Shown here piece by piece: positions 1-17,891 of a stretch of 64,000 nt of DNA. The notes below the pieces were generated by a model. It was given only the letters and a program-made list of their open reading frames with translations, had not been told where the DNA came from and made no database searches. Position 1 is the stretch's first letter, and the number at the start of each line of letters is the position of its first letter. Source of the stretch: Mesorhizobium loti (GTDB lineage: Bacteria > Pseudomonadota > Alphaproteobacteria > Rhizobiales > Rhizobiaceae); assembly GCA_014189435.1 (NCBI GenBank), contig CP050293.1:4655001-4719000 (forward strand), read 5' to 3'. The translations under genes and the position numbers were made by a program.

Positions 1-276
1 GTTTGGGGACGGGAGAACATACTGTTCTTCAGGGGGCCGGTCCTCCAATCTCCATTCTATGATCCAGCAGTGATCGAAAAATGCGGCCAGCGTTGATGGG
101 GGCGCCCGCCGCCGCACGTGTATGCGCCCCAAAGATCCTCGCGGGTCGATCACCCCCCGTGGCATCGCATGTTCGATGCGAGCGCTGTCGCGTTTTTCCA
201 AGCCCATCATTTCCGCGTCATTTACGATCACCGTGACCAGTTGCCGACACAGCTGGAGTCGGTATTCAAACGATGA
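1..276 (+). other. Possible 3' end of an upstream gene, coupled to the next gene
   Basis: One frame is open from 97 to a TGA at 274-276 and ends with residues DQLPTQLESVFKR. The same frame is also open from base 1 to a TGA at 94-96, so this may be the tail of one damaged gene or two unrelated stretches. The TGA at 274-276 overlaps the ATG at 273 of the phosphodiesterase gene in an ATGA arrangement, typical of translational coupling, and this is the main reason to think something real ends here. I do not recognise the product. Confidence 0.3.
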
Positions 277-1284
277 AATGGCTTTGTTCGATGGGGAAAT
301 TATGGCGTGGAATCTCAGTTGCGGCTTTGCTCTTCGGGTCGGCTGTATTTTTCAACAATACGACGATGTTCTCACCTCGCTCTGAGGGGGAAACCGACGC
401 TGCTTGCGCACCGGGGGATGTCACAGCAATTCGATCGAACAAACCTGCGCAACGACACTTGCACAGCCTCTCGTATGTTGCCCCCGACACACGGGTATTT
501 GGAGAACACAATCCCATCGATGCGGGCTAGCTTTGAGGCAGGGGCAGACATCGTCGAACTGGATGTGCACCCAACAACCGACGGGAAGTTCGCTGTCTTT
601 CATGACTGGACGCTGGACTGCCGCACGAACGGCCACGGGGTTACCAGAGAGCACTCAATGGCGGAAATGAGGGAATTGGACGTCGGATACGGATACACGG
701 CAGACGCAGGCAAGACCTTTCCCTTTCGAGGGAAAGGAGTTGGCATGATGCCGTCGCTGGACGAAGTGCTTGCAACGTTTCCTCGCAAGAGATTCCTGAT
801 AAACATCAAGAGCAATGATGCATCCGAGGGCGATCTGCTCTCTCAGGAACTTTCGCGCATTGCATCGGGCGATCTGGCAAGGCTTATGGTGTACGGTGGG
901 GACAAGCCCATCGCCGCGCTGAGGCGCGCGCTCCCGGACATCAAAACGATGTCGCTTAGTTCACTAAAGGGATGCCTCATCCCCTATATTGCATATGGTT
1001 GGACTGGGGTTGTTCCTGCAGCTTGCAATAACATGGTCATCTTTGTACCCACAAATTTTGCAGGATGGCTGTGGGGTTGGCCTAACGTTTTTCTAAACAG
1101 GATGGCTTCGGCCAACAGCCTGGCCTTCTTGGTGGGACCTTATCACGGCGGAGAGTTTTCGACAGGCATTGATACTCGAGATCAGGTTCTCGCCTTGCCT
1201 GGGCATTACTCTGGTGGGGTGCTTACAAACGAACTAGAAGTTGTCGGTCCGGAGCTGAGGACAAGGCTCCAGTCGGCGCGTTGA
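273..1284 (+). pseudogene. Glycerophosphodiester phosphodiesterase, frameshifted near the N-terminus
   Basis: Family members hydrolyse glycerophosphodiesters to glycerol-3-phosphate and an alcohol. The reading frame from 273 encodes a membrane anchor (about residues 13-29, ISVAALLFGSAVFF) and reaches a run of five G at 386-390. The catalytic part lies in another frame: AHRG just after the run, then LENT, ELDVHPT and FHDWTLDCR, the usual GDPD metal and general-acid/base motifs. Removing one G joins anchor and catalytic domain into a 336-residue protein of normal layout. The start at 273 overlaps the preceding stop. It is either a genuine single-base mutation or a homopolymer sequencing error. 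The methionine at 307 in the catalytic frame is not a credible start because it would lose the anchor. Confidence 0.75.
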
Positions 1285-1383
1285 GCAGCTTCTCATAAGG
1301 GCTCCATTCGTAGCAAAAGGTCGATTGAGTCCAATTGGATCTCTGATTGCTCTCCGCCGACGGCATTGGCATTGGTGAGATCC

Positions 1384-2286
1384 ATGCGAATCTTTCTGAC
1401 TGGCGCAAGCGGCTATATCGGTCTGCACGTATTGTGCGAACTCCTTACGGCCGGCCATGAGGTCACCGCTCTGGTGCGGTCGCCTTTGAAGCTGGGATCT
1501 TACGCGCACGCCCCTAACCTGCGAATTGTGACGGCTGACCTCGCGCGACAACATCAGGTCCTACGGGCGCTGGCTGGGCACCATGTTTGCGTGCATGTTG
1601 CGCTCGTCTGGGGCCAGCCGGACGAAGAGCTTGAGCTCAGGGACACGGTGTTTTCCGCGAAGCTTTTCGACGCAGCGGGAAAAGCCGGCATAGCCCGTTG
1701 CATTTTCATGTCTTCGGTAGCAGTGCATCGCCCATTCGCGGAAGAGATGTCCGACGATGAGCGGCTCTCGGCGACTGACTACTACGGTGCCACAAAGGCA
1801 GCCGGCGAGCTTTTCCTCCGCGCGGCATGCACGGAACATCAGATGACTGGGATCGTCATCCGTCCGGGGCCGGTCGTCGGTCTGCCCGCATTTTCAGGAG
1901 GCTCCTTTCGCAGCGACCACCGCCTTGCTGGGATGGTAGCCTCCGCGATGGAAGCACGTCCACTCGAGGTCCTGGCGGGAGACGGACGCCAACTGTCGGA
2001 TGTGGCGACAGTCGCCAAGGTCACACGCATGCTCGCCAGCGCTGATAATCCGCATCCGGTCTACATCTGCGTTGACCGTGCGATTTTCACTTGGGAGTGG
2101 ATTGCGCAAAAGATAGTGGCGTGCGTGGGTTCGTCAAGCGAGGTGCGGGTCCTTCCACCAATCGGCGAACGTCCAATCCCTCGTTTTTGCCCCGCGCGAA
2201 TCGAGGAACTTCTTGGTGGGCCGAGCGACGCGAGCGGTGCTCTGACGGAGCACATACTCCACCTGATGCAATCTTCGGCTGGCTAG
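1384..2286 (+). CDS. NAD(P)-dependent epimerase/dehydratase (extended SDR)
   Basis: A 300-residue extended short-chain dehydrogenase. The N-terminus has the Rossmann nucleotide-binding motif TGASGYIG, and the YGATK motif near residue 140 supplies the catalytic Tyr and Lys. These proteins act in the cytosol on nucleotide sugars or small carbonyl substrates; the substrate cannot be read here. The ATG at 1384 is preferred over a TTG at 1366 because a GGTGAG ribosome-binding sequence lies just before it and the Rossmann motif then starts at the usual distance. It stands alone, about 100 bp after the broken phosphodiesterase gene, and appears intact. Confidence 0.8.
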   Translation: MRIFLTGASGYIGLHVLCELLTAGHEVTALVRSPLKLGSYAHAPNLRIVTADLARQHQVLRALAGHHVCVHVALVWGQPDEELELRDTVFSAKLFDAAGKAGIARCIFMSSVAVHRPFAEEMSDDERLSATDYYGATKAAGELFLRAACTEHQMTGIVIRPGPVVGLPAFSGGSFRSDHRLAGMVASAMEARPLEVLAGDGRQLSDVATVAKVTRMLASADNPHPVYICVDRAIFTWEWIAQKIVACVGSSSEVRVLPPIGERPIPRFCPARIEELLGGPSDASGALTEHILHLMQSSAG

Positions 2287-2954
2287 TCCGAGGGACAATA
2301 TCGGCGAGCCCAGTCAAGCGGAAGACTACAACTACCTAGGGCAAGTCGGCAGTGCAGCGAGCTACATTTCGGTACCAGTTATTTTTCACATCTTCTTTCA
2401 AGACACCTGTTACACGCGAATTTGGCTTACTTGGCTTATGGCTTCTTCGCATGTCTGGACTCTTGGCATAACTCAGCCGCACAGAGACATCTTCTAGGAC
2501 TACTAACGACGGGATGGGTTAGGTCATGACGGATATCGCGATCCTCGGAGTAGGAGCAATCGGGGGAACAGTCGCGGCATATCTGAGCGAAAAGCCCCCT
2601 CATAGGATCACTTTATGCGCGCGCTCCATATTTTCGGAGCTGATTGTCGAAACCGCTGAAGGGCGTAAGTCTATCGCACCTCGGATACTGAACTCGCCCG
2701 GTCGCGGTGAGGTGATGGATTGGGTGATAGTTGCGACCAAGGCCTATGATGTGACAAGCACGGAGCCTTGGCTCTTGGGTCTCGTTGGCCCGAAAACGCG
2801 TGTTGCCATATTACAGAATGGTGTTGAGCACGTCGCGCTGCAACGCGACAATTACGGTGTCCGTCTATCGACAATTAAACTGGCATATTTGGACAGTCGC
2901 CGAGTAGCGACAAGACGTCTATCTTTCTAATTGTCGTTTGACAAGGGGAGTCTT

Positions 2955-2979
2955 AGCGACAATCATTTTAATTGTCGCT
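2955..2979. repeat. Inverted repeat of the IS end motif inside the IS21 element
   Basis: AGCGACAAT and ATTGTCGCT face each other across a 7-bp spacer. The arms repeat the terminal-repeat core of the same element, and another copy of ATTGTCGCT lies near 3006. The probable role is transposase binding. A hairpin downstream of istB on the transcript is also possible, but there is no T-run. Confidence 0.55.
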
Positions 2980-3069
2980 GGCTGTTTATGATAGTGGCGT
3001 GAGTAATTGTCGCTAGCTATTGTCCCAGCGACGATTACAGCCCATGCGATGATGTGTTGCTGTTAAAGC

Positions 3070-3843
3070 CTAAGCCAAGATGGGAGTTTCCTCGTTGGTG
3101 GCTCGCCGGGCGGCGGAGCGCTCTCGATAACTTTCGCCATTCATTTCTATGATCGTGGCGTGATGGACCAATCTGTCCACCGCCGCCGCGGTCATGGCGG
3201 CGTCCGGGAAAACGGTGCTCCATGCTGAAAATGCATGATTGGCGGTGATGGCGATGCTGTGCCGTTCGTATCGATGCGCGATGAGTTCGAACAGGACGCT
3301 GGTCTCGGCTTGATCCTTCCTGACATAGGAAAGGTCGTCGAGTACGATGAGGTCGAACTTATCGAGCTTCTCAAGGGCGCCGATCAGGGAAAGGTCGCGA
3401 CGCGCAGTCTGCAGCCTTTGAACGATGTCGATGGTACGCGTGAACAAGGCCCGCTTTCCAGCATCGATAAGAGCATGGCAGATGGCCGCGATAGCGTGAC
3501 TTTTGCCTGTGCCGCTTTTGCCGAACAACAGGAGGTTGTCGCCGTTCTTGATCCAGTCTCCGCCGGCGCCGAGGGACAGAAGTTGCTGTTTGCGCACGCC
3601 TGGTGCGGCGTCGAAATCGAAGCTGGCGAAGGTTTTGCCAGCCGGCGCTTCGGATTGATCGCGATGACGCTGGATGCGGCGTGAGGTGCGCTCGGCGACC
3701 TCGATCTCCATCAGCGCAGCGATGGTTTTTTGGGCTGGCCAGCCGTCGCGGTCGGCAGTGTCGGCGATGCGCCGCCAATTGCGCACGATGCTGGGCAGGC
3801 GCAGTTCGGTCAGCAAGGAGGAGAGGAGGGCTGCGTCGGTCAT
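3070..3843 (-). CDS. istB: IS21-family helper ATPase IstB
   Basis: A 257-residue AAA+ ATPase that assists IstA in target capture and strand transfer. Walker A is GKSGTGKS near residue 108 and Walker B is LIVLDDLS near residue 170. The ATG at 3843 overlaps the istA stop (ATGA), the classic coupled start of this pair, and a GAGG sequence lies upstream of it. The longer TTG frame from 3858 is not needed. The length is normal for IstB. It ends about 230 bp inside the left end of the element. Confidence 0.95.
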   Translation of the reverse strand: MTDAALLSSLLTELRLPSIVRNWRRIADTADRDGWPAQKTIAALMEIEVAERTSRRIQRHRDQSEAPAGKTFASFDFDAAPGVRKQQLLSLGAGGDWIKNGDNLLLFGKSGTGKSHAIAAICHALIDAGKRALFTRTIDIVQRLQTARRDLSLIGALEKLDKFDLIVLDDLSYVRKDQAETSVLFELIAHRYERHSIAITANHAFSAWSTVFPDAAMTAAAVDRLVHHATIIEMNGESYRERSAARRATNEETPILA

Positions 3844-5354
3844 GGCCGTACCTCGCAAGCCGAGGGCAGAAGCCGATCGTAGGCTTCAAGATTTGGCTCT
3901 GGGATGGCGACCTCGCTCGACGAGTTCGGTTTGCTCGCGAACTCGATCTCAAGTTTGGCGAGGTCAGGCAGCCGGCCGGCGTCCAGGATTGCGTCGAGAC
4001 GATCGGCCAAGGTGATCTCAATGGCTTCGCAGGTCGAGGCCATTGCCAGCAAAGCGACCATTGACCGGCAGGCGTCTCTGGGCGGCAGGGCTTCGTCCAG
4101 AGCGGTCCAGGCGCGAGCGTAGGCTGCGCGCGGGAAGAGTGCTTCGCGGTAGACGAGGTATCGGAGGGCTTGCGGCTTGCGCCGCAGTGTACCGATCAGA
4201 TGATGATAATCGATCGAGTGGCCGCGTGCTCGGTCGGTCCGTGCGCGGGTCATGCGCATGACCGGGTCGGGGCCGAGGAAGCATTCCAGCCGGTCATCGA
4301 AGAGACGCACTTCGATCTTGTTGCCGATGAGCCGGGACGGAACGGAATAGAGGATCCGATCGACATTGATGGTGCTGTTGCGTGTCACCTTCGCCGTCAC
4401 CATCGCGAAGTCGGTGGTTCGGCGCTTGGGCAGAGTTTTGAGCGTCTCGCGCTCGGCCGCGACGGCCTTGGCGCGGCGGGCGTTGTGACGATCGCAGACG
4501 CCACTGACGAAGGCTCGATAGGCTTCAAGGCTGTCGAAATCTCGGCTTCGGCGGCGCCGGAGCCTCTGGTCGAGGCGGATCTTGATGTGGCCGTTGGCGG
4601 CTTCGATGCTACCGTTCTCATTGGCGACGCCGGGATTGTTGCGGGTGGGCTCCATGCCGTAGTGTCGGCACAGGTCGCCATAACGCTTGGTAAAATCGCG
4701 TTCGGCGTCGCGGTCGAGGTTTTTGAAAGCAGCCGACAGCGAGTCAGTCCGGTGTTCGCGCGGGACGCCGCCCAGCTTCCAAAGCGCATCCTGCAGGCCT
4801 TCGGCGACAGCTGAAAAGCTTTCGCCGCCGAGAATGACTCGCGCATGTTCCCAGCCGCTACAGGCCAGCCGGAAATGATAGAGGCGGTGCGGGAAAGGCT
4901 CGCCGGCAATGGTGACGCCGAGGCTGTCCGTGACGGTGAAATCGGACAGCGCCTGGCGGCCGGGATCATGGCGCTGAGGGAAGAAGACCTCCTTGTCTTC
5001 GCCGTGAAGGGCGCGCCATTTGGCGATGCGACGCTCCAGCGTGCGGCGGACGCTGTCGGGAAGAGCGTCAAGGCCGAGTTCATCCTGGAGGTCCTCGAAG
5101 ATCGTCACGGCCATGACACCTGGTATCCCCAGCATCTCCAATACCCGGGGCCAGACGTCCGTCAGTGGGTCGGTGCGAGTTCGCCAGGTTCGCGGCTGCT
5201 TCTTTTGAGACGGCAAACGCGGGTCTTTGTCTATGCGGCGTGCGGTGCGCGCGCTAAAGCCGGCGCTGGCTGCGGCGGCATCCTTGCTTTGGTGTCGGGA
5301 ACGGGAGGTCATGTAGAGCATCACCTGGCAGTCGGTCACATGAAGGTTTGGCAT
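3840..5354 (-). CDS. istA: IS21-family transposase IstA
   Basis: A 504-residue DDE transposase. An N-terminal helix-turn-helix region covers about residues 5-45. The integrase core has VTDSLG (D143), HRTDSLS (D204) and NGSIEAANG (E251), fitting the DDE triad. The C-terminal part has the Mu-transposase-like domain found in IstA. The start at 5354 (MPNLHV) gives the normal family length; an extension upstream to 5417 is open but carries no recognisable domain. It is co-transcribed with istB, with a 4-bp stop/start overlap. Confidence 0.95.
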   Translation of the reverse strand: MPNLHVTDCQVMLYMTSRSRHQSKDAAAASAGFSARTARRIDKDPRLPSQKKQPRTWRTRTDPLTDVWPRVLEMLGIPGVMAVTIFEDLQDELGLDALPDSVRRTLERRIAKWRALHGEDKEVFFPQRHDPGRQALSDFTVTDSLGVTIAGEPFPHRLYHFRLACSGWEHARVILGGESFSAVAEGLQDALWKLGGVPREHRTDSLSAAFKNLDRDAERDFTKRYGDLCRHYGMEPTRNNPGVANENGSIEAANGHIKIRLDQRLRRRRSRDFDSLEAYRAFVSGVCDRHNARRAKAVAAERETLKTLPKRRTTDFAMVTAKVTRNSTINVDRILYSVPSRLIGNKIEVRLFDDRLECFLGPDPVMRMTRARTDRARGHSIDYHHLIGTLRRKPQALRYLVYREALFPRAAYARAWTALDEALPPRDACRSMVALLAMASTCEAIEITLADRLDAILDAGRLPDLAKLEIEFASKPNSSSEVAIPEPNLEAYDRLLPSACEVRP

Positions 5355-6161
5355 CGAGCTCAAATCGTTGGTTGATTGAGCTGCGATACCACCCTCGACG
5401 CCGAACGGCTGGCCCACCCTGAAGGGGGGGCTTGAAATCGCCGCCGTCCGCCAGTGCCGCTTTCCGGTCGGGGCTCCGCCCCTCCCTTCAAACGGCGCTG
5501 GCGGACGCCCTAACCGGCCAAGATAATTGTCGTCGAACTGGCCAACTTAATTGTCGCCGCGCATCGCGCGTTTTGCTCCCTACCTGGCGGAGTCGATGAT
5601 TGTACCCGTCGTGGTCGACATGCCAGTTGAGCGATTGGGCCCGGGACATTTCCGCCAAGGCCGGACCGGTCGACTCGTGGTCGCTACCAGCACGCACGGC
5701 GAGGAGTTCTCTTCCTTGTTCCGGGGTACCAATATTCATGTCGAGACGACGACAGACTTTATTTCAGAAGCGTGGAGAAAGCTTGCTCACAATTGCGCGG
5801 GAGCTGTACCGGCTTTGCTCATGAAGCCCGCGTCCATCGTTCGCAGCGCCCCCATTGCCGCCATAATGCGCGAACTTGTTGAGGAGTGTGTCGCTGTCGG
5901 ACGTGCTGAGGGCGCGTCTTTCGACGCCGACTTTGCCGACCGGGTTCTGAACCGTTATCGCGACGGTCCGCCAGGAGCGATCAACTCACTTCATGCTGAT
6001 CGGATCGCCGGCAAACCATTGGAGATTGATGCACGGAACGGCGCCGTCGTGCGGTTTGGACAAAAGCATGGCATTTCGACCCCCGCAAACCGGATCTTCG
6101 TTGGCCTGCTCCTGGGGAGCACCGTGTGAACCGCAACGCTTTCCAACGCGCGAAGGGCCCC

Positions 6162-6899
6162 CTACTCCTTCATCTTAGTGGCTCCGAGCACAAGAATGGG
6201 TGGCCGCCGCAATTCTTTAGCTAACTCGGGTCGCTTCGCCAACGCTTCCTCAACCGGCCGGGGTTCCCCGAGGTGGTCTAGTCGAAACCCGGCGGCCAAT
6301 AAAGTCGACACATAGGTTTCGATTGTTCTGTGGAATTTTGTGACACCTTCTACAAACCAGTTGGTTTCTCGCTTCCCCTCGTCCTGGTAGCGGTCCACAG
6401 GCCAATGCTGCGCGTCGCCGGCACTTCCATTGACCCAGCCCACTGGATTAGCCGTGCAGATCGGATGCTCCACCGAGAAAACAAAGGCGCCTTCGGGCTC
6501 TAAAGCTCGAAAGATGCGCCGGACGGCCGCCTCATAGTCAGAAACATAATGCAACGCCATCGATGAGACTATGAGGTCGAACGAGCGTGATGCGAACGTA
6601 GCGTCTTCGATCCCGTTCACCAGGTAAGTTATCCCTGGGTCGTTCGTCAATTGAGCTGCTTCGGCAATCATGCTTTTCGAAGCGTCGATGGCAACAACAG
6701 AAACTGCACCAGCGCCGCGAGCAAAGCGCGCAAAATCGCCAAAACCGCATCCGAGATCCAGCACCCGGAGGCCCCCGAGTTCAGGCAGAACGGCACGCAG
6801 AGCTGGGACTTCCAAAGCCCCATTTAAACCGGTGTCGTTTCGCCTAAGAGCTTTGTAGCCTGCGAAAAAAACGGGATTATCATAAATGTTCTGCTGCAT
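6162..6899 (-). CDS. Class I SAM-dependent methyltransferase
   Basis: A 245-residue protein with the SAM-binding motif I VLDLGCGFGDFARFA near residue 45, an acidic motif II (VVAIDASKSM) and a motif near residue 110 (FDLIVSSMALHYV). This is the UbiE/BioC-like Methyltransf_11 fold. The substrate is a small molecule of unknown identity; the closest broad family includes methyltransferases of antibiotic and amino-acid modification. It is a single gene, convergent with the broken panE-like gene. A 42-bp piece of it, covering motif I, recurs at 10527-10568. Confidence 0.85.
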   Translation of the reverse strand: MQQNIYDNPVFFAGYKALRRNDTGLNGALEVPALRAVLPELGGLRVLDLGCGFGDFARFARGAGAVSVVAIDASKSMIAEAAQLTNDPGITYLVNGIEDATFASRSFDLIVSSMALHYVSDYEAAVRRIFRALEPEGAFVFSVEHPICTANPVGWVNGSAGDAQHWPVDRYQDEGKRETNWFVEGVTKFHRTIETYVSTLLAAGFRLDHLGEPRPVEEALAKRPELAKELRRPPILVLGATKMKE

Positions 6900-7242
6900 A
6901 TCTTGCCTCGTACGGTATTTACATCAACCGCTTGCTATTTGCGCGGACGGTCCGCGAATGGTTTCTTTGAGAAAGATGTCCGCGCCCACATCATCCACAT
7001 GTCAGGCGCACGTCGGCTACGGCTATGCACCAGCTGCAAATGATTTCGAAACCACTTTCATAGCTAGGGCGAGATCCTCCGAGCATGGAGCCCCGGACGG
7101 ATCCAGCACGTTTTTGGCGATCTGCTGGATGCGAGTCATCACCTCAACCGGTCGTACCGGTAGATCTGCCCTCGAAAGCGCCCATTCGCGGGATAATGTC
7201 GGCCTCCACCTTGTTAGACGCCAGCGAGGCGCTTCCGGTTTC
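6900..7242. other. Intergenic stretch without a recognised gene
   Basis: This 343-bp gap lies between the start of the methyltransferase gene and the end of the broken lysR gene. Only short frames are open, the cleanest being a 38-codon minus-strand frame at 7023-7139, which I do not recognise. No repeat, terminator or operator stood out. It may hold the methyltransferase promoter and remains of a lost gene. Confidence 0.4.
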
Positions 7243-7722
7243 TCACTGAGACAGCATGGCCGACGTTCTGGTGTCCAGTCTCATCATTTCAATGAACGCC
7301 ACCAGTGCAGCCGGGGGCTGCCGTCTACCTGAATAATAAAGAAAGAAGCCTTGATACGTGGGGCACCAAGGTTGAAGTGTGCGGACCAGAAGTCCCGAAG
7401 CCGCCGCTTCACGAATGTCATGCTCATTCGTGTAGGCGATGCCGACACCATCAAGCGCCGCTGCAAGCATTAGGTCAGGATCGTCGAGCACGACCGGTCC
7501 GTTGACGGCAACGCTAAACACTCGACCCTCTTGCTCGAACTCCCACCGATAAAGTTCGCCACTCGCGATCTGGCGATAGCCAATGCATTGGTGCTCAAGC
7601 AGATCTCGGGGGGTTTGGGGTGGTGAAAAGCGGGCAAAGTAATCAGGAGATGCGACGACGGCCGTTCGCAGATCGGTCGTGATCCGCACCGCGATCATAT
7701 CCCTGTCGAGGCTTTCGCCTAA

Positions 7723-9136
7723 CATTACAGTTGCGGTTTAGATTTCAGATGAGCTCGTCGAGCGGCCGCCTGATGGGCGCGCCTCCAGCATGACCATGCG
7801 ATGACGTAGGCGGGTTTTATGCGACGCTGGGCGAGTCTGATGGCGATGCGCCGGACTTCCTGGATAGACCAGCGGATCAAATCCTGATGGTCGGCATCCG
7901 CGGTCTTTTTTGGGGCGTCACGTCATTGGCGCGGTATCGGATCACCGCCATCATGGCGAAGGCCAGCATGACGAGGGAGACGTGGCGATGCCAGCCATGC
8001 CATGACCGGGTTTCGTTGTGATCGAGTCCGAGCTCGTTCTTGGCGGTCTCGAAGCTGTCTTCGATCGCCCAGCGATGGCCTTCAACGGAAACGAGCGTCT
8101 GGATGCCCGTCCCGGCCGGGCACCATGTGGTGAAGAATGCGAGATCACCGTCGCTGATATTGCGCCGGATTAGGAGGCCACGGGTCCAAAGCCCCGATTT
8201 CGTCTCGTTATATTCGTCGGCATCGAGATCGGCGAGTTCGCAGTAGGCCCAGTCATGAAGCCGCGCGCCTTTGGTGCCCTCACCGGCGGAAAGACGCTGC
8301 CATGCAGTTGGATCAAGATCACGGGCGATCTCCTGAGCTGTGCCGGCGACCGGAGGCTTACCCGACCAGGAGCCGAAATGGTGGTCCGATTTGACCCCAA
8401 GAACGTAGCCTTTGCAGGCTCGGCGCAGGGTTCCTTCGACGTCCCCGACGCCATACACCGCATCTGCGGCCACCCATGAAAACGGCACATCGGCTGCCAG
8501 CGCACGCCGTATCATATCGACAGCCAAGCCTGGCTTGGTAGCGAAGGCTATAGCCTCAGGAACATGGGTTGCTGCAAGCCTTGCCCGATCTCCGGTCCAG
8601 CTTTTGGGCAAGTACAAGGCCCGGTCGATAAAGGCATGACCGCGAGCGGACACATAGGCGGCGAACACACCGATCTGGCAGTTCGTTATCTTGCCTGCCG
8701 AACCTGTATATTGACGCGCAACACCGCACGACGTCTTGCCCTGCTTGAGGAAGCCCGTCTCGTCGATGACCAGGACCGCATCATCCGTGGCGAGGTTTTC
8801 TACAACATACTCTCGCACGATGTCGCGAAGTGCGTCCGCGTCCCAACGCCCGCGACCCAGAACGGCTTGTTGCCGCCACGGGCCGGGGTCACCGGCCGCC
8901 TCAGCGCGCATCCAACCTGTCTTACGCCGCTCGTCACCCAGCAGGCCGTCCAGGAAGAGGTTCGCAGAGGCTGCAACTCGCTCCTGCGTAAACAGTCCGC
9001 GCATGCGAGCCTTCACGTCACGCAGCGATGATGCCCAAAGCTCAAGCGTCGTCTCGATTGATGCACCTGTCATCCATGACCTCCGAATCATGGAGACCCA
9101 TAGATTCAGACCGTAGATAAATATGCAACTGTAATG
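7723..9136 (-). mobile_element. IS701-family insertion sequence, 1,414 bp
   Basis: The termini are perfect 12-bp inverted repeats, CATTACAGTTGC at 7723 and GCAACTGTAATG ending at 9136. They are flanked by the direct repeat CTAA at 7719-7722 and 9137-9140; a 4-bp YTAR duplication is the signature of the IS701 family. The element contains one transposase gene on the minus strand, frameshifted near its end. It interrupts a lysR gene. Confidence 0.92.
7725..9073 (-). pseudogene. IS701-family transposase with a late frameshift at an A6 run
   Basis: A DDE-type transposase with VLVIDETGFLKQGK near residue 105 and AADAVYG near residue 208, and an acidic C-terminal motif in WAIEDSFETAKNELGLDH. The ATG at 9073 has GGAGG six bases upstream. 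In the main frame it stops early at 7877, right after a run of six A on the coding strand (7906-7911). A shift of -1 at that run continues through WSIQEVRRIAIRLAQRR and KPAYVIAWS to a TAA at 7725-7727 inside the terminal repeat, giving about 449 residues, the family's usual size. Either it is mutated by one base, or ribosomal or polymerase slippage at the A-run still yields some full protein. Confidence 0.8.
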
Positions 9137-9710
9137 CTAACCTAATACCGGCGTCGAAACCATCCCGGATGATGTCTACGAAGTTGTTCGACGCGGCAAT
9201 TTCTAAAACGACATCGGGATATCTGTCCGCGAAAGCCCGGAATCTCGGAGCAATAATGCTGGCGATAACGGTGCGCGGAACGCTTAGACGAATCCTCCCG
9301 ACCGGATGTTCCCGGAAAGCATTTATCGACTCGACGGCCGTCTCGATACTGGCGAACGCTGGCGCGATTTGCCGCAGCAATGTTTGACCTGCCTCCGTCA
9401 AAGAGACTGTACGCGTCGTGCGATGTATCAGCCTCACCCCCAGTCTTCCTTCGATGGCCCGAAGAGAATGAGAGAGCGTCGAAGGCTTTAGGTTAAGCCG
9501 GGCGGCTGCGCGACGGAAGCTGCCTTCCTCGGCGATCGCCACGAAAGCCGCCAGTTCTCCGAAATCACCGCTTTTCATGATTGATGAATTTAAGCCATCA
9601 CCACGTGCGATGCAAGCTCGCTTATGCCCATCAATGGAAGACTGTAGATCATGTACGGCTGCGAGCCAGTGAACCGCCGAAATCACGGCGTACAGACAAG
9701 GGAGAATAAA

Positions 9711-10523
9711 ATGACCACCCAACAGCCAAAATCGACGCCACTGCAGCTAAGCAATCGCGTCGCCATTATTTCTGGTGGAGGCACCGGCATCGGCCGAGCC
9801 GCAGCACTAGCGTTCACGCAGCAGGGAGCTAAGGTCACGCTAGCCGGTCGCCGATCCAAAGAAATTCAGGAAGTTGCCGACGAAATAACGGCAGCAGGCG
9901 GAGAAGCGCTGCCACTCGTCACCGACGTTACAAAGGAACCCGATATCCAACGCCTCGTAAACGAGACGATGGCGCATTACGGGCGCCTGGACATCGCCTT
10001 CAACAACGCCGGCATCCTCGGGAGTTTCCGGCCGATCACGGAGCAAACAAGCGCCGACTTTGACGCCGTGATCGCCACGAATCTGCGCGGCGTCTGGCTC
10101 TCAATGAAATACCAGATTGAAGCTTTTCTGGCGCAGGGCGTTGCGGGGACGATAGTCAACACCTCGTCCTGGTTGACGCACGGTGCACTCGCCGGGTCGT
10201 CCGCCTATTCGGCCAGCAAAGGCGCGCTTGATGCGATGATCCGGGCACTCGTCCTTGAATATGGGCCAAAAGGTATTCGCATCAACAATATCAATCCAGG
10301 GATCATTGATACCCCAATGGCGCGCGGTGGTTGGAATGACGAAGCCGCTTTTCGCCCTTTTGTGGAACATACTCCGGCAAAGCGGGCGGGATTGCCAGAA
10401 GACGCGGGCGACGTGGCTGTGTGGCTGTCGACGGATCAGGCGCGTTTTGTAACCGGCCAGAGTATCCTCGTTGACGGGGGCTACACAATCGCAGGCTTGC
10501 GTGTGCGGGACGACGCATACTGA
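9711..10523 (+). CDS. Classical short-chain dehydrogenase/reductase
   Basis: A 270-residue classical SDR: cofactor motif SGGGTGIGRA near residue 22, NNAG near residue 100, catalytic Ser and YSASK near residue 167, and a C-terminal TGQSILVDGGYT. It catalyses NAD(P)(H)-linked oxidation or reduction of an unknown small substrate in the cytosol. The ATG at 9711 follows GGGAG at good spacing; an upstream in-frame ATG at 9651 would run through the promoter region shared with the divergent lysR. The pairing with that regulator, now broken, suggests loss or release of its normal control. Confidence 0.88.
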   Translation: MTTQQPKSTPLQLSNRVAIISGGGTGIGRAAALAFTQQGAKVTLAGRRSKEIQEVADEITAAGGEALPLVTDVTKEPDIQRLVNETMAHYGRLDIAFNNAGILGSFRPITEQTSADFDAVIATNLRGVWLSMKYQIEAFLAQGVAGTIVNTSSWLTHGALAGSSAYSASKGALDAMIRALVLEYGPKGIRINNINPGIIDTPMARGGWNDEAAFRPFVEHTPAKRAGLPEDAGDVAVWLSTDQARFVTGQSILVDGGYTIAGLRVRDDAY

Positions 10524-10526
10524 ACC

Positions 10527-10568
10527 GCGCCGCGAGCAAAGCGCGCCAAATCGCCAGAACCGCATCCG
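10527..10568 (-). repeat. 42-bp remnant copy of the methyltransferase SAM motif
   Basis: This segment matches 6712-6753 with only two differences over 42 bp, in the same orientation. On the minus strand it still reads GCGSGDLARFARGA, matching GCGFGDFARFARGA of the intact gene. The match begins within a few bases of the stop of the dehydrogenase gene and does not extend far on either side. It is the scar of a second methyltransferase copy or of a small duplication. Confidence 0.7.
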
Positions 10569-10766
10569 TAGCGAGAGTCTCTACGGCTAGGACAACGCCC
10601 GCGCGCGAGCATTGTCTTAGTCAGAGCGACGCCGAAGAGGACATGATGCCGCGAGAACGTGTCTTCCGCCACTACAATTGGCTTAGCGGATCACGGCTGA
10701 TGCGTAAGGCGGGCAATTCTTCTATTGATCGGATACATCCCGCGCATGTCAGTCTGGATCCCCTAA

Positions 10767-11765
10767 ATGGCTGAAGCTGTAAGATCTGTGAATTTGGCGG
10801 ACTTGTCATTCTATGCCGAATTCAATCCGCTGGATCGGCACAGAGGGATCACTGACCACCTTTTTGTTCTCAAGGACAAAGGAAGACTGACGGGGGCGGA
10901 CGCGGCATTGTTTGCGTCTCCATTCAGTGAAGTTGCTCTGATAGGCTCGCGATGCGCCAATTTTGAAACAAGCCAAAGCGAAACAGTAACATGGCGGGCA
11001 ACTCATACCTCAGCACGGTTCGGCCGACGGCAGCGGCCGTGTGCTTTTCACGGCTGGATCATCGGCTTCCGGTGTCGCCCGTTAGATGCTGCCATCGGAA
11101 CTGATCAACTCATGCGATATGTTCCGATCGAAGCCCTCGCTAACAGCACGCGCAGTGAGGCGTTGGATACGGTCGTCAACATGCTTGACGATTGGCTCGA
11201 TCGGCTTTCCGACGCAGGGCTTCTTAAGCCATCTTTGGCCGTAGTGCCGTCCTGTGCCGCATCCCAAAAACTCAATGGAAATGTACGTACCTTGGCTGAA
11301 GCGATCAGCATCGCTCCACGTACGCTGCAGCGGCGTTTCCGTGGTGCTGTGGGTATGCCGCCAAAAAAATACCTAACGGTCGCGCGCTTCACCAGAGCCC
11401 TTAGGCGGATCGTAGAAGATGATGCACGCTTGGCATCAATCGCCCTGGACTCTGGCTACGCGGATCAAGCCCATCTGACTGTCGACTTCACGAAGCATTG
11501 CGGATCATCTCCGAGCCGCTTTCGCCAACGAGCAGCTCGACAAAAGTCCCAGGAGATTGTCCGATTTATCAAAGAACCTGCTCTGGGAGGCCGGTTACGT
11601 CTGGCTATCTGCGACGCAAAACCAAACGATGGTGATTCAGATGGCCACGACATTTCTCCCGAAGGACCTAAATTACATGAGCCGCGTCCGGAAGTCGTTC
11701 AGTCGTCAAACGGTGATGGCAACGTTAGGTGTGGAGATCGAGAGGCTGGAGGCAGGAGAAGTTGA
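10767..11765 (+). CDS. AraC-family transcriptional regulator
   Basis: The C-terminal half carries the AraC double helix-turn-helix: VRTLAEAISIAPRTLQRRF near residue 175 and LASIALDSGYADQAHLTVDF near residue 220, closing with SPSRFRQR. The N-terminal part looks like an effector domain of the kind seen in DUF6597-type AraC proteins, but is hard to place. After about residue 265 the sequence becomes hydrophilic and low in recognisable features, and it overlaps the next gene by 125 bp, so the true end may have been altered by a frameshift. It probably regulates the thioesterase gene that follows. Confidence 0.75.
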   Translation: MAEAVRSVNLADLSFYAEFNPLDRHRGITDHLFVLKDKGRLTGADAALFASPFSEVALIGSRCANFETSQSETVTWRATHTSARFGRRQRPCAFHGWIIGFRCRPLDAAIGTDQLMRYVPIEALANSTRSEALDTVVNMLDDWLDRLSDAGLLKPSLAVVPSCAASQKLNGNVRTLAEAISIAPRTLQRRFRGAVGMPPKKYLTVARFTRALRRIVEDDARLASIALDSGYADQAHLTVDFTKHCGSSPSRFRQRAARQKSQEIVRFIKEPALGGRLRLAICDAKPNDGDSDGHDISPEGPKLHEPRPEVVQSSNGDGNVRCGDREAGGRRS

Positions 11766-12099
11766 TCTGAGAATGGCGTACGACGCCAAATTTTCCCAGC
11801 AACACGGTTTTATGCATGCTGGCATTATCACGACCGCGCTCGACTCAGCTTGCGGATACGCGGCGTTTTCTCTCATGGCTGAGCATGCGGCGATTCTGAC
11901 GGTGGAATTCAAAACGAACCTTATTGCCCCGGCCAAGGGAGAATATTTTCTATTTCGAGCAACGGTGATCAAACCAGGTCGCACCATTACGATCTGCGAC
12001 GCCCGGGCCTACGCAGTGCAGGCGGGGCAGGAAACGCTCGTCGCTACAATGACAGGCACGCTCATGGCGGTGGTCGGCCGCGAAGGGATTTCTCACTAA
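11641..12099 (+). CDS. PaaI-family hotdog thioesterase (element-borne copy)
   Basis: A 152-residue hotdog-fold protein with the PaaI-type stretch QQHGFMHAGIITTALDSA, where the HGG-like loop and Asp position the thioester. It hydrolyses acyl- or aryl-CoA thioesters in the cytosol. Start at 11641 because a close paralogue in this window (19618-20076) has the same length and the alignment begins at the same residue; a GGTGA sequence lies upstream. The paralogue sits on the chromosomal side of the integrase, in opposite orientation. Confidence 0.85.
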   Translation: MATTFLPKDLNYMSRVRKSFSRQTVMATLGVEIERLEAGEVDLRMAYDAKFSQQHGFMHAGIITTALDSACGYAAFSLMAEHAAILTVEFKTNLIAPAKGEYFLFRATVIKPGRTITICDARAYAVQAGQETLVATMTGTLMAVVGREGISH

Positions 12100-12432
12100 G
12101 GCGCGTATAAGCAAAGCTTACCTGCAGGGGCCAGGCGGGGTCAGTTCTCTACGCTAATAAACCGGAAGCGACTTGGTAGATGAGATTCCTAAATACTTTG
12201 TATTCAATCTCATACGCCGAAAACGCGTGCTATCCGGCAGCACGGATGAGCCTGGGCTGAAACCTGTGACAACTAAGTCAGAGTGTAGCTTGATAGGCCA
12301 ATGCTCGATTACGCGCTGACAGATGATCGGTTCGATTGAAGTTCCTATCCGCATGCAGAGGCTAAAAGTTGCGACTTCTATGCAAGTTGCAGGTGAAGCA
12401 AGCTCCGCTCCCTCAGAAACGTGAGGCTAATG
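12100..12432. other. Intergenic stretch without a recognised gene
   Basis: About 330 bp between the thioesterase stop and the end of a minus-strand lysR gene, so it lies between two convergent transcripts. It looks less GC-rich than the flanks. I see no open frame with family motifs, no clear terminator and no repeat. Confidence 0.4.
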
Positions 12433-13355
12433 TTAGCGAGAACGCTCGATTCCAGGCATAGCGGCAATGTGGTCGTCAAGAAAATCTATGAGCAGCCGAA
12501 CCCGTGCAATGGTGGCGCGCTCCGGCACGATTAGCATGCTCAGCGGCACCGGCGGGGGAAATATCCTGGCAGGATCACCTCGAGCCGCCCCTCGGCCAAA
12601 AGATCATCTACAAGCCATCGATGCGCCGGCGCGACACCGCGCCCGGCTACAAGCGCCTCCCGCGCGGCTAGCCCGTGGTCGACCCGAAGCCCTCCACCGA
12701 AAGGTATCTCGTGGCGTTCGCCGGTCGAGGTCAGCAGCACCAACGTGTCGCTTCCAGCGATATTCGACATTCGGATACCTTCATGGTCGCGCAGATTCTG
12801 CGGACTAGATGGCCTTCCGGCCCTTGCGAGATAGGACGGCGCCGCCACCATAAGCCGTTTCGATCGGCCGAGAACTCGCAATTTCATGGAGCTGTCGCTG
12901 AGCGGCCCGAGCCGAATGGCGACGTCGACGCCCTCACGCAGCAGGTCGATCCGTTCGTCAGAGAGGCTCAGGTCGATAACGATATCGGGGTATCTGTCCT
13001 GAAAAGCGAAGATCAGGCGGCTGATGTGCAATACGCCGAGAGCGGCTGTGCATGAAATCCGGACAGTACCAAGCGAGAATCCCCCCGAGCCGCGCGCCTC
13101 ATCGCCGGCCAGCTCCACAAGGCGGAGTATCTGGATGCAGTTGGCATAATAGCCTCTCCCCTCCTCAGTGAGCGTGACGCGGCGCGTGGTCCTGCTAAGC
13201 AAAGGTACACCGACTGCCTCCTCGAGTTCGCGCAGGTGGCGTGTAACGGTTGACTGCCCAGTTCCGAGCTCACGGGCGACCGCCGAAAGACTACCCCGTT
13301 CGGCAACCCGGACGAAGGTCCGCATGCGATCGAAAGTGACTTCCGATTTATCCAT
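12433..13355 (-). pseudogene. LysR-family regulator, frameshifted near the C-terminus
   Basis: The winged helix-turn-helix (residues about 7-66, with GSLSAVARELGTGQST) and most of the effector domain are intact. The frame then meets a run of five C on the coding strand (12554-12558) and stops at 12540. With one more C the protein would continue as PPPVPLSMLIVPER to a TAA at 12433-12435, giving 307 residues, the family norm. The last 36 or so residues are therefore lost or the sequence has a homopolymer error. It is divergent from the quinone-reductase-like gene at 13447, its probable target. Confidence 0.8.
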
Positions 13356-13446
13356 TATTCGGCAGAATGTTATCCATTTCGCATATCTAGCGCATTACTC
13401 TAATTGGGTCCATCTCAAGGTCAATTCCAACCTTGGAGGCTGACCG

Positions 13447-14265
13447 ATGAAAATCTTGCTGGTTTTTGCCCATCCTGAACCTCAGTCGCTTGGCGCCTCT
13501 CTCCTTGACGTGGCAGTGAAGGAATTGAAGGCTCAGGGACACGAGGTGCTCCTTTCGGATCTCTATGCCCAAGGCTGGAAGTCTCAGGTCGATCGTGCCG
13601 ACTTCCCGCAGCTGCAGCCGCAGGCGCGGCTGAGAGTGCCTGCGGCCTCGGGAGAGGCCTTCGACGCTGGCGCCCTATCTCCCGACGTAAAGGCTGAGCA
13701 GGAAAAGCTACTCTGGGCTGACGTCCTGATTCTTCAGTTCCCGCTTTGGTGGTTCACCATGCCTGCGATCCTCAAGGGCTGGGTTGATCGAGTTTACTCG
13801 TACGGGTTCGCGTATGGCGTCGGCGAGCACAACGACAAACGTTGGGGCGACCGCTATGGTGAAGGCACCCTGGCGGGCAAAAGGGCCATGTTGATCGTCA
13901 CCGCCGGAGGCTGGACGGAGCACTATTCAGCGCGGGGAATCAATGGTCCGATCGATGACCTCCTGTTCCCGATCAATCACGGTATTCTCTATTATCCTGG
14001 TTATGAGGTGCTTCCGCCGTTTGTCGTCTATCAAGCCGATCGCCTCGGCGAAGAGGGTTTCGAACGCGTGGCCGAACAGCTCCGTGAGAGAATGCGGACC
14101 CTCGAGACGACGCCGCCAATCCCTTACCGGCAACAAAATGGCGGCGACTACCTGATCCCGACAATGCTGCTGCGACCAGGGTTGGGAGATCCTGCCGAGG
14201 GATTCAAGTTGCACATGAAAACCGAAAAATCAGGGACGAAGCAGAGCGGGCCGGGTCACCGCTAA
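13447..14265 (+). CDS. NAD(P)H oxidoreductase, flavodoxin-2 (NQO1/MdaB-like) fold
   Basis: A 272-residue protein beginning MKILLVFAHPEP, the phosphate-binding loop start of the flavodoxin-like quinone reductases. The motif FPLWWFTMPAILKGWVDRV near residue 100 and GGWTEHY near residue 158 are typical of this family. It transfers two electrons from NAD(P)H through FAD or FMN to quinones or similar electrophiles. The start has a GGAGG sequence just upstream. It is transcribed away from a LysR gene 91 bp upstream, a common arrangement for electrophile-induced reductases. Confidence 0.87.
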   Translation: MKILLVFAHPEPQSLGASLLDVAVKELKAQGHEVLLSDLYAQGWKSQVDRADFPQLQPQARLRVPAASGEAFDAGALSPDVKAEQEKLLWADVLILQFPLWWFTMPAILKGWVDRVYSYGFAYGVGEHNDKRWGDRYGEGTLAGKRAMLIVTAGGWTEHYSARGINGPIDDLLFPINHGILYYPGYEVLPPFVVYQADRLGEEGFERVAEQLRERMRTLETTPPIPYRQQNGGDYLIPTMLLRPGLGDPAEGFKLHMKTEKSGTKQSGPGHR

Positions 14266-14459
14266 GCCCCGGATCTGGCCCGACGGCCTGATCTGCGACG
14301 CTCGTGAAATTCCTCGGTTTGTCTGTCCGAACGAGAAGGGTCGACCGACGCCCCTATACGACACCTACCCGTTCGGATGACCCGTCCGATTTACACGACA
14401 TAGCCCGATATTACCGCACCCGTTTACGCGTGGGCTTCAAAGCGGAAGATCTATCGCCT

Positions 14460-14492
14460 TCTATCTCCACAAGAGCAAAACGTGGAGATAGA
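14460..14492 (+). promoter_or_regulatory. Hairpin covering the ribosome-binding site of the excisionase gene
   Basis: TCTATCTCCAC (14460-14470) and GTGGAGATAGA (14482-14492) form a perfect 11-bp stem with an 11-base loop. The second arm contains GGAG at 14484-14487, the Shine-Dalgarno for the ATG at 14495. In RNA this would hide the ribosome-binding site; in DNA it could be a binding site for a dimeric protein. The sequence shows the structure; the role is inference. Confidence 0.65.
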
Positions 14493-14494
14493 GT

Positions 14495-14764
14495 ATGAGC
14501 GCTGCCCCGCATGTCACCCGCAGGACAATTCGCCGTCACCAGCTCCGAGAGATCGTGCCGCTTGCCGACAGCACGATCTACGACATGGAGCAGCGAGGAG
14601 AATTCCCGCAGCGCTTCTATCTCACAGCCCGCTGCGTCGTCTGGGACTTGGCAGAGGTCGAAGCCTGGCTCGACGCTCGACGCCATGCCTCTCGGATTAA
14701 CACCGTCAAGCGCGCTCCCAGTCCCGACGTGAGATTGCGCCGTTCCCGGCCAGTCAAACACTAG
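14495..14764 (+). CDS. rdfG: AlpA-like excisionase (recombination directionality factor)
   Basis: An 89-residue basic protein with a winged helix-turn-helix of the AlpA/MerR type: LREIVPLADSTIYDMEQRG at residues about 19-37, then FPQRFYLTARCVVWDLAEVEAWL. Such proteins bind near attachment sites, bend DNA and turn the integrase toward excision. It lies beside and convergent with an integrase gene, their 3' ends overlapping by 11 bp. The pair next to guaA matches rdfG/intG of Mesorhizobium tripartite ICEs, hence the symbol, which rests on position and domain type. The ATG follows GGAG that is locked in a hairpin. Confidence 0.85.
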   Translation: MSAAPHVTRRTIRRHQLREIVPLADSTIYDMEQRGEFPQRFYLTARCVVWDLAEVEAWLDARRHASRINTVKRAPSPDVRLRRSRPVKH

Positions 14765-16010
14765 GCTCGAGCTCAACCAGCTTCATCGTCGGCGGGAGCA
14801 GTGTCGGGACATACTTCCGCCCTAGGACCCACGCGTCCACCAGATTGGACCACTCCTGCATCATATGCCTGCGTTGATGCTCGTACTCCGCCTTGTTGTA
14901 GACGCCACGCGAGGATCGGCCGTCCTCGTGCGCTAGGCACTTCTCGATCCAGTCACTGTTGAAGCCCAGCTCATTCAGCAGCGTCGAGCCTGTGCGTCGA
15001 AGATCGTGAACAGTGAAAGGTTCGAGTGGCAGCCCCTCCTTTTTCGCTCTGACAATGACTGCGGTCGTAATCCGGTTAAAGGTTGCCCGCGACATCGGCG
15101 CGTCAGCGTCATATCGCGATGGAAGGACGTAGCGCGAATTGCCTGCGCAGGTTTTCAGTGCGATGAATATGTCGACAGCCTGCTGTGACAGATAGACGTT
15201 GTGTGCCTTCGACCGCTTCATTCGCTCCTTGGGTATCGACCAGACGGCGTTCTCGAAATCAACTTCATCCCACGTCGCATCTTGCAGCTCGCTTTTCCTG
15301 ACCATCGTTAGGAGGAAGAGCTTCATTCCCAGCCGTATGGTCGGCAGGGTCGGTACATGCTCGAGCTGACCGAGCATGACGCGGATCTCCGCAGGAGATA
15401 GCGAGCGATCCTTCGGTACGAAGGTCGCGATAGACGCGGGCCCGACTTCATCCGCTGGGTTGGCGACCTTCTCGCCATGCAGGATCGCGAACGCAAAGAT
15501 CAGTTTAACGATATCCCGCACATGCACGGCCGTGGCTGGTGCGCCGCGATCCTTCACCTTCCCGCACATCATGCGGAGATCGTCAGGCGTGATCTCCGTC
15601 AGAAGCCTATTTCGAAACGATGGTAGGATATCGCGCTCATAGATCGAGCGCCGCATGGCACGCGTGCTGTCGGCCATGCGCGACTCCTGGAACCACTTCT
15701 CGCCGAACTCGCCGAACCTCTTAGCCTCCTTTAGTCGTCGTTTGTCGTGCTGCTTTTCTTGAGCAGGAGACCGCCCTTCGGAAATGGCTCGCTTCGCATC
15801 GATCAGCTTCTCGCGAGCCCTGGCAAGCGAGAGGCCATCCGGGCCGTATCGCCCAAGCGTCAGCGTCTCGCGACGACCGTTGAGGCGGTAGTCATACCGG
15901 AACACGATCGCCCCCGACGGCTGCACCACGACGTACATACCGTCACGATCGCTCACCTTGTACAATTTCTTCTGTGATCTCAGTGCCTTAATCGCAGTGT
16001 CAGTCAGCAT
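14754..16010 (-). CDS. intG: P4-type tyrosine integrase
   Basis: A 418-residue site-specific recombinase. The N-terminal arm-binding domain (DUF4102 type, about residues 1-85) includes YRLNGRRETLTLGRYG. A core-binding domain follows to about residue 195, then the catalytic domain with R238 (MVRKSEL), H335 and R338 (HDLRR), H361 (CLAHE) and nucleophile Y371 (GVYNKAEY). All catalytic residues are present. The ATG at 16010 has GGAGG at ideal spacing; the longer TTG frame to 16022 is unlikely. It would join the element's attachment site to the guaA 3' end, 319 bp upstream of its start. The symbol follows its position beside guaA, as for IntG. Confidence 0.93.
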   Translation of the reverse strand: MLTDTAIKALRSQKKLYKVSDRDGMYVVVQPSGAIVFRYDYRLNGRRETLTLGRYGPDGLSLARAREKLIDAKRAISEGRSPAQEKQHDKRRLKEAKRFGEFGEKWFQESRMADSTRAMRRSIYERDILPSFRNRLLTEITPDDLRMMCGKVKDRGAPATAVHVRDIVKLIFAFAILHGEKVANPADEVGPASIATFVPKDRSLSPAEIRVMLGQLEHVPTLPTIRLGMKLFLLTMVRKSELQDATWDEVDFENAVWSIPKERMKRSKAHNVYLSQQAVDIFIALKTCAGNSRYVLPSRYDADAPMSRATFNRITTAVIVRAKKEGLPLEPFTVHDLRRTGSTLLNELGFNSDWIEKCLAHEDGRSSRGVYNKAEYEHQRRHMMQEWSNLVDAWVLGRKYVPTLLPPTMKLVELEPSV

Positions 16011-16054
16011 GGGGGCCTCCAAAACCGTCTAAAAACCGGAGAGAGGCGCCGATT

Positions 16055-16212
16055 ATACCGTCAGGCCAAAAAAGGCGATGCTGCAAGCACGATTCCCGTT
16101 TAAAACCAGGCCGTTAATACAAAAAACAATACCGTCATCAGCTCTCTCGGCCGTGACGGTATAGCGAAACTCACGACCGAACAAGTTCCCCCATACCGTC
16201 TGCTATACCGTC
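16055..16212. repeat. Five ATACCGTC octamers, probable recombinase arm or excisionase sites
   Basis: The octamer occurs at 16055-16062, 16129-16136, 16193-16200 and 16205-16212, and inverted (GACGGTAT) at 16155-16162. A weaker AACCGTC lies at 16023-16029. Five exact copies of an 8-mer in 158 bp, between an integrase start and its predicted core site, is what arm-type integrase sites look like. They also overlap where the integrase promoter should be, so self-regulation is possible. Confidence 0.75.
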
Positions 16213-16319
16213 CAATCGGAGTACTGCCCCTCGATAGAGGGCGATAGACCTCGTTACAATTATCGTTATATCACAATTATTTATAGCGAATGAGGGCGTG
16301 CAATCGGATACTGCCGGAG

Positions 16320-16380
16320 GGGCTAAAATCATTCCCACTCGATTGTTCCCGGCGGCTTCGACGTCACGTCGTAGACGACG
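16320..16380. other. Predicted attachment site at the guaA 3' end
   Basis: The last codons of guaA lie next to the integrase arm region and the gene is intact to its stop, as expected where an element integrates into the 3' end and restores it. The exact crossover bases cannot be set without the other end of the element, which is outside the window. I found no second copy of these bases in 1-16,300. Confidence 0.6.
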
Positions 16381-17891
16381 CGGTTGATGCCGCGGACTTC
16401 GTTGATGATGCGGGTGGCGGCAGCGCCGAGGAACGTCATGTCGTAGTGGTAGAAATCCGCCGTCATGCCGTCGACCGAGGTGACGGCGCGTAGCGCGCAG
16501 ACGAACTCGTAGGTGCGGCCGTCGCCCATCACGCCGACCGTCTGCACCGGCAGCAGCACGGCGAAGGCCTGCCAGATGGCGTCGTAGAGGCCGGCCTTGC
16601 GTATCTCGTCGAGATAGATGGCGTCGGCCTCGCGCAGGATCTCCAGCTTCTCGCGGGTAATGCCGCCGGGGCAGCGGATGGCGAGACCGGGGCCAGGAAA
16701 CGGATGGCGGCCGATGAAGCTTTCGGGCAGGCCGAGCTCCTTGCCGAGCGCCCTCACCTCATCCTTGAACAGTTCGCGCAGCGGTTCGACCAGTTGCATG
16801 TTCATGCGCGCCGGCAGACCGCCGACATTGTGGTGCGACTTGATCGTCACCGACGGGCCGCCGGTGAAGGAGACGCTCTCGATGACGTCGGGATAGAGCG
16901 TGCCCTGCGCCAGGAATTCGGCGCCGCCGAGTTTCTTGGCCTCTTCCTCGAACACCTCGATGAACAACCGGCCAATGGTCTTGCGTTTTTTCTCCGGGTC
17001 CGACTCGCCCTCAAGGGCGTCGATGAAACGGTCCGACGCGTTCACCAGAATGAGCGGCAAATTGTAGTGCTCGCGGAACATCGCCACCACGCCCGCGGCC
17101 TCGTCCTTGCGCATCAGGCCGTGGTCGACAAGGATACAGGTCAGTTGGTCGCCGACCGCTTCGTGGATCAACAGCGCGGCAACGGAGGAATCGACGCCGC
17201 CCGACAGCGCGCAGATGACCTTGCCCTTGCCGACCTGCTTGCGGATCGTCTCGACCGCGTGCTCGCGATAGGCGCGCATGGTCCAGTCGCCTTCGATGCC
17301 GGCGATGTTGTGGACGAAGTTCCTGAGCAGCCGGGCACCGTCGGGCGTATGCACCACCTCGGGGTGGAACATGATGCCGTACATCTTGCGCTCGATGTTG
17401 CCGAAGATGGCGAAGGGCGAGCCCTCCGACTTGCCGAACACCTCGAACCCCTTGGGCAAGGAGATGACGCGGTCGCCATGGCTCATCCACACCTGGTGGC
17501 GCTGGCCGGGCGCCCACAGGCCCTCGAACAGCGGGCTGTCCTTCTGGATCTCGACGAAGGCGCGGCCGAACTCGCGATGGTCGGAGCTTTCGGCGACGCC
17601 GCCCATCTGCACGCACATGGCCATCTGGCCATAGCAGATGCCAAGCACCGGGACGCCGGCGTCGAAGACGATCTGCGGCGCGCGCGGGCTGCCGATATCG
17701 CCGGTCGAAGCCGGGCCACCGGACAGGATGACAGCCTTGGGATTGATGCGTTTGAACGCCGCTTCGGCCGACTGGAACGGCACGATCTCGGAAAACACAC
17801 CTGCCTCGCGGATGCGGCGGGCGATGAGTTGGGTAAACTGGCTGCCGAAATCGACAATCAGGACGGTGTCGGGATGATTGGCTGTTTTCAT
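16329..17891 (-). CDS. guaA: GMP synthase (glutamine-hydrolysing)
   Basis: A 520-residue bifunctional enzyme making GMP from XMP, glutamine and ATP. The N-terminal amidotransferase domain has the nucleophile in GICYGQM (near residue 86) and the His/Glu in FHPEVVHT. The ATP-pyrophosphatase domain has the PP-loop LSGGVDSS near residue 230, and the C-terminal dimerisation domain ends in GTIEWE, the conserved end of GuaA. Length and motifs are normal. Its 3' end faces the mobile region and appears to be the integration target. Confidence 0.98.

Follow-up and report, generated by a model that had tools for sequence, protein, structure and literature searches.

One tripartite integrative and conjugative element (ICE) of Mesorhizobium is ICEMcSym1271, whose three regions are recombined by IntS, IntM and IntG at sites in phe-tRNA, met-tRNA and guaA, according to its published accounts (PMC8627217, PMC9973854, PMC5882170). 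In the account of this element, rdfG lies convergent with intG, and a relay from RdfS to RdfG has been demonstrated for such tripartite symbiosis ICEs (ICE3); it also holds the idea that the tripartite form shields ICEs against competitors (PMC5882170). Monopartite ICEs of Mesorhizobium at guaA have already been published as well (PMC8627217).

In this study, we analyzed a stretch of 64,000 nucleotides from Mesorhizobium loti (C1:4655001-4719000, hereafter the window), whose genome of 8.33 Mb consists of three contigs (assembly scored 100% complete). The integrase gene and the AlpA-like gene beside guaA in this window very probably serve as the recombination genes of a non-symbiotic ICE in one piece, ~114 kb long (C1:4557181-4671347), which lies beside a 47-kb remnant devoid of an integrase. 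As far as the published description of monopartite non-symbiotic guaA ICEs goes (PMC8627217), the element resembles them in its guaA target, its one-piece form, its R7A-type conjugation genes and its lack of symbiosis genes (judged by nodA and nifH), whereas the adjoining 47-kb integrase-less remnant and an IS66 element in the left attachment site set it apart.

The recombination cassette at guaA

The features of the locus are compiled in Table 1. An earlier note on this DNA had described a complete P4-type integrase and an AlpA-like protein between broken accessory genes and the intact 3' end of guaA, with which open reading frames, Pfam and NCBIfam all agree. The integrase shows the Pfam domains Phage_integrase (E 1.8e-22), Arm-DNA-bind_3 (1.9e-19) and Phage_int_M (3.7e-12); its top NCBIfam model is PRK09692, at 171 bits below the cut-off of 434. 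The AlpA-like gene is convergent with the integrase gene, the 3' ends of both overlapping (14754-14764), and its product, a presumed excisionase, matches Phage_AlpA in Pfam (E 4.3e-12) and no NCBIfam model. GuaA lies well above the equivalog cut-off (PRK00074, 782.6 bits vs 400). Only ~306 bp separate the intact integrase gene from the intact guaA, and the DNA of the arm between them is 72-85% identical in relatives (28 of 71 matches listed, including that of the window itself). The integrase is of the kind that targets the 3' end of guaA, as its near-identical counterparts at guaA and its likeness to IntG, both described below, show.

Table 1. Coordinates of the features of the guaA locus (positions in the window unless preceded by C1)
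Feature	Position	Strand	Details	Basis
Right end (16 kb) of the 114-kb guaA element (C1:4557181-4671347)	1-16347	.	Transfer genes further left	Core copies
IS21-type istB/istA region	3070-5417	-	Interrupts 2-dehydropantoate 2-reductase-like gene	Pfam + NCBIfam
DDE_5 transposase	7877-9091	-	Interrupts LysR gene	Pfam
LysR-type regulator	12540-13355	-	Cargo adjoining the recombination genes	Pfam/NCBIfam
Flavodoxin-fold oxidoreductase	13447-14265	+	Cargo adjoining the recombination genes	Pfam/NCBIfam
AlpA-like small protein, probable excisionase (RdfG-type RDF)	14495-14764	+	89 aa	Phage_AlpA
P4-type tyrosine integrase	14754-16022	-	422 aa, or 418 aa when counted from the ATG at 16010	ORF list + Pfam
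Attachment-site arm, integrase side	16023-16330	.	Between integrase and guaA	Conserved DNA in relatives
Core, guaA side	16331-16347	.	Spans the GuaA-end codons TIEWE	17 bases common to the copy at C1:4557181
guaA, intact target gene	16329-17891	-	520 aa	NCBIfam equivalog PRK00074
IS66-family element	C1:4557205-4558927		Begins 7 bp from the inner core; 9-base repeat TTTCTAACC on both sides	

Two of the accessory genes on the left of the window are split by insertions. The two pieces of the 2-dehydropantoate 2-reductase-like gene cover model positions 2-118 (2526-2930) and 111-293 (5551-6129) of 302, and those of the LysR gene comprise HTH_1 with LysR_substrate positions 2-66 of 209 (9042-9722) and LysR_substrate positions 67-205 (7243-7725). 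The window shares hardly any cargo with the cross-order relatives described below: blastn of positions 1-14400 against their loci (≤ 10 kb of flank per locus) yielded only two matches longer than 150 bases, the window's own locus being left out.

Core copies, arms and gene content of the element

Searching the whole genome for the last 18 bases of guaA (≤ 2 mismatches) returned three places on one strand, namely guaA itself, C1:4557179 and C1:4510374, which puts two extra core copies 114 and 161 kb left of guaA. Pairwise, the three copies have 15-17 contiguous bases in common and then diverge, the inner (nearer) copy sharing 17 with the guaA end. On the guaA strand, all of them encode TIEWE followed by a stop codon (GAA TGA, GAA TAG and GAG TGA), and their differences are confined to synonymous or stop positions. 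The reversed pattern was found at zero places in the genome, and 8.33 Mb read on both strands should contain ~0.004 exact 16-base matches by chance. Chance as the origin of the copies is ruled out by this control, by the core counts in other genomes and by the conserved arms.

The core copies can be regarded as real attachment sites because the arms are conserved: beyond the IS66 element, the stretch C1:4558997-4559167 and the arm adjoining the outer core on its right show 79% identity over 171 bases. The genome has a near-copy of the IS66 element at another place (99.6% over 1725 bases). At the left (inner) attachment site, IS66 parts the core from its arm, so this site may be blocked, whereas the outer core still has an unbroken arm.

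No clean empty site was found when the 2.8 kb up to and including the outermost core were compared with 146 genomes of the genus and 20 fetched stretches, and the outer boundary therefore rests on the cores and arms. The 214 bp left of the outermost core (C1:4510178-4510391) are 72.8-83.9% identical to the integrase-side arm of other guaA elements (loci listed). Like these, the 95 bp left of the inner core resemble the arm of the group of integrases with 76-81% identity, and in other genomes that arm adjoins partial integrase matches (6/20 fetched stretches). By these likenesses, the 214 bp are not ordinary chromosome but a relic of a third, older guaA element. Beyond them, a 2.5-kb stretch is kept across the genus, at varying distance from guaA.

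The segment bounded by the inner core and guaA contains genes for transfer, some 19-39 kb to the left of the integrase. They encode an RlxS-type relaxase, TraG, a transglycosylase, a DUF736 protein and TrbE-, TrbL-, VirB8/TrbF-, TrbI-, TrbB- and TrbG-type proteins, together with an S26 peptidase, an RPA replication initiator and ParA; TrbJ is also present. TraG, TrbB, TrbE and TrbJ score above their NCBIfam cut-offs, while the TrbL, TrbF, TrbG, TrbI, TrbC (2.3e-24) and TrbD types were assigned by Pfam, the last (VirB3/TrbD, 1.7e-07) towards the end of an ORF. The earlier note had assigned positions 1-16,330 to a tripartite ICE with its IntG end at guaA; the assignment to a guaA-targeting conjugative element holds, and the core copies extend the element to ~16,347.

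The relaxase (C1:4636984-4638762) reaches 582 bits with the RlxS model, below the cut-off of 850, and aligns with DUF3363 over model positions 2-125 and 199-375, leaving 126-198 unmatched. It thus seems shortened and may be non-working, and self-transfer may for this reason have been lost; the present copy of the element may be defective. Three DUF3363 proteins were found in the genome, the element's own and two on C3, one of which has an internal stop. On C3 (656 kb), nifH and nodA lie within C3:557248-596941, and between them is a relaxase-like gene (DUF3363; C3:566102) that contains an internal TAG.

The 114-kb segment further encodes an HTH_17 protein and, in two ORFs in different frames, the domains PF20109 and PF10074, presumably the make-up of RdfS and of msi172-msi171/FseA. 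Over 66 aa, the HTH_17 protein (C1:4632288-4632572) shares 42% identity with a protein of strain WSM1271 (C1:5720450), the better of two matches in that genome, which we take to be RdfS. Other contents of the 114-kb element are a single open frame of 8646 codons (C1:4567334-4593274, minus strand) and cargo with type IIG restriction-methylation-like and AbiEii-like proteins detected by PADLOC (C1:4617293-4621076). Overall, the segment combines features of a monopartite ICE, with an integrase and RDF at guaA, direct core repeats around one segment, and transfer and regulator genes. Its neighbour, the 47-kb segment (C1:4510374-4557180), showed neither a Phage_integrase nor a DUF3363 match; only one of the 17 Phage_integrase places of the genome falls within the 161 kb.

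Relatives of the integrase across alphaproteobacterial orders

The layout around the integrase is not due to chance, as it recurs in the best 80 of 572 relatives: 74 of them have the end of guaA 285-312 bp ahead of the integrase, and 76 have a convergent AlpA-like (RDF) gene at the integrase's 3' end. Six of the 80 lack the guaA end there, three (L046, L056, L089) with little contig left. The other three (L063, L067, L071) have room beside the integrase and no guaA match; they are possibly inner copies of tandem arrays or use other sites. Among 29 loci from the genus, the guaA end was present in 28 and the convergent RDF gene in 19, and 20 loci picked from lower identity bands gave 18 and 19, respectively. 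An integrase match (E 1e-60 or better) was detected in 81/146 genomes of the genus, with identity bands near 96, 87, 76-81 and 69-72% and some partial or weaker matches of 47-57%.

Integrases at least 95% identical to that of the window sit at guaA in 23 of the best 80 relatives, comprising 22 alphaproteobacterial records from three orders and one betaproteobacterial MAG. The hosts include Sphingomonas, Rhizobium, Ancylobacter and Methylobacterium. Compared with that of the window, the GuaA proteins of the 23 show 54 to 98% identity (median 70%), that of the MAG being the most divergent; the MAG itself could be mis-binned. Across this set the integrase, RDF, arm and target are the same, whereas the cargo differs. 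Set against the divergence of GuaA, such near-identity indicates that the guaA cassette crosses orders. Among the full-text matches listed, no title or abstract opening concerned such cross-order spread, which is weak evidence of absence.

A quickly built tree comprised 128 rows, 115 of them different, and 49/112 of its inner branches had support under 80. Here, the window's integrase belongs to a set of 48 rows (SH-aLRT 96), apart from the 17-row set (100) that contains the two documented ICE3 integrases. When 38 hand-picked rows were placed in a careful tree, 13 ICE3-type rows came out on one side (100/100), and holding the window's integrase together with them was rejected (p-AU 0.0022); this group was named after the first tree had been seen, and documented ICE3 strains account for 2 of its 13 rows. 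Both phylogenies place the integrase closer to the cross-order guaA group than to the IntG group of ICE3.

A probable one-piece ICE and its alternatives

The earlier note had read the locus as the IntG end of a tripartite symbiosis ICE. For comparison, IntS, IntM, IntG and RdfG of M. ciceri WSM1271 were searched by tblastn (E 1e-4) against the stretches around all 17 integrase places and the 161 kb; the queries were identified by their position and order in WSM1271, where, as expected, intM and the RDF-like gene upstream of it adjoin tRNA-Met and intS adjoins tRNA-Phe, 8 kb apart. The homology part of that reading stood: IntG matched the integrase of the window (71.6% over 416 aa; one other match, 23.5%) and RdfG the AlpA-like protein (69.6% over 79 aa), and both genes are convergent at guaA as in region beta of the WSM1271 element. 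This layout, however, is not diagnostic for ICE3, because it is seen in the cross-order relatives, too. What had to be dropped is "tripartite" and "symbiosis". IntS was found at none of the 17 integrase places, its only matches being the window's own integrase (32%) and another (25%). IntM is represented solely by a C-terminal scrap of 92 residues (336-427; C1:827177-827452), which is 90% identical and lies ~5 kb from a tRNA-Met; it counts in favour of ICE3, and we read it as the relic of an element at the tRNA-Met site. The end of tRNA-Phe has no second copy in the genome (≤ 3 mismatches), the sole other place, with 3 mismatches, being at another tRNA.

In the genome search, NodA gave a single match and NifH a single one above the cut-off, both on C3, and the conjugation genes share a segment with the integrase. 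In ICE3, halves of attS, attG and attM are swapped among three separate regions; here, the guaA cores bound contiguous DNA and the tRNA-Phe end is single. The absence of a second guaA end, which the earlier note had named as refuting its reading, did not come about: two further copies exist, but nearby and in a one-piece arrangement. As far as the assembly goes, a three-part symbiosis ICE is ruled out by the results for IntS, IntM, tRNA-Phe and nodA/nifH, by the position of the integrase outside the ICE3 IntG clade and by the AU test, and we regard this reading as highly improbable. P4-type integrases and AlpA-like proteins are found in phage satellites, too, and both could point to a prophage or phage-satellite integrase outside any conjugative element. 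Such an origin is more improbable still, as a trb-type conjugation module and a relaxase lie inside the same core-bounded segment.

The one-piece guaA ICE is favoured by gene content, core copies and arms, and by the lack of IntS and of a whole IntM in the places searched. Modelled on known tyrosine-recombinase ICEs, its integrase would recombine the circular element (attP) with the last six codons of guaA, for which the element would supply its own copy and thereby keep guaA intact. The AlpA-like Rdf would shift the reaction to excision, transfer would rely on the relaxase, TraG and trb genes encoded within the element, and FseA-like and RdfS-like proteins, coded upstream, would control it. 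The 47-kb segment in tandem would represent the remnant of an earlier guaA element.

A variant compatible with this explanation, which we consider rather unlikely, is that the movable unit today is the 161-kb composite from guaA to C1:4510374, in which the 47-kb segment would travel as a cis-mobilisable passenger. The displacement of the inner core from its arm by IS66, next to an uninterrupted arm at the outer core, would fit such a composite, as would a passenger without integrase or DUF3363 match. On the other hand, the two arms are merely 79% alike, and the outer arm is matched equally well in other genomes with guaA elements (84% in G035), so that the present integrase may not use it.

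guaA as a repeatedly used site

Further core copies (≤ 1 mismatch, guaA strand, ≤ 250 kb, integrase side) were detected in 11/25 chosen genomes, including the window's own. Several others of the 25 carry copies farther away or on the opposite strand, and WSM1271 and WSM2073 showed no further core on that chromosome strand. The arm traces left of the cores are, by their resemblance, layers of older guaA elements, and guaA presents itself as a crowded site that is used again and again.

For the element of the window, we propose by analogy a relay from RdfS to RdfG as in ICE3. The presence, in a one-piece guaA ICE, of both an RdfS-like protein in the transfer region and an RdfG-type excisionase at the integrase leads to a tentative and, in our view, doubtful wider picture: the relay would predate the tripartite form, while a cassette that restores conserved codons would cross orders nearly unchanged as its cargo turns over, and the present copy, its inner attachment site being split by IS66, may now move only as the 161-kb composite.

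An IntG/RdfG-like pair at guaA is no sign of a tripartite ICE, since the same pair occurs at guaA in many alphaproteobacterial families, and a likely misreading of such loci is hereby corrected. The crowding at guaA bears on the idea, put forward in the account of ICEMcSym1271, that the tripartite form protects ICEs from competitors (PMC5882170).
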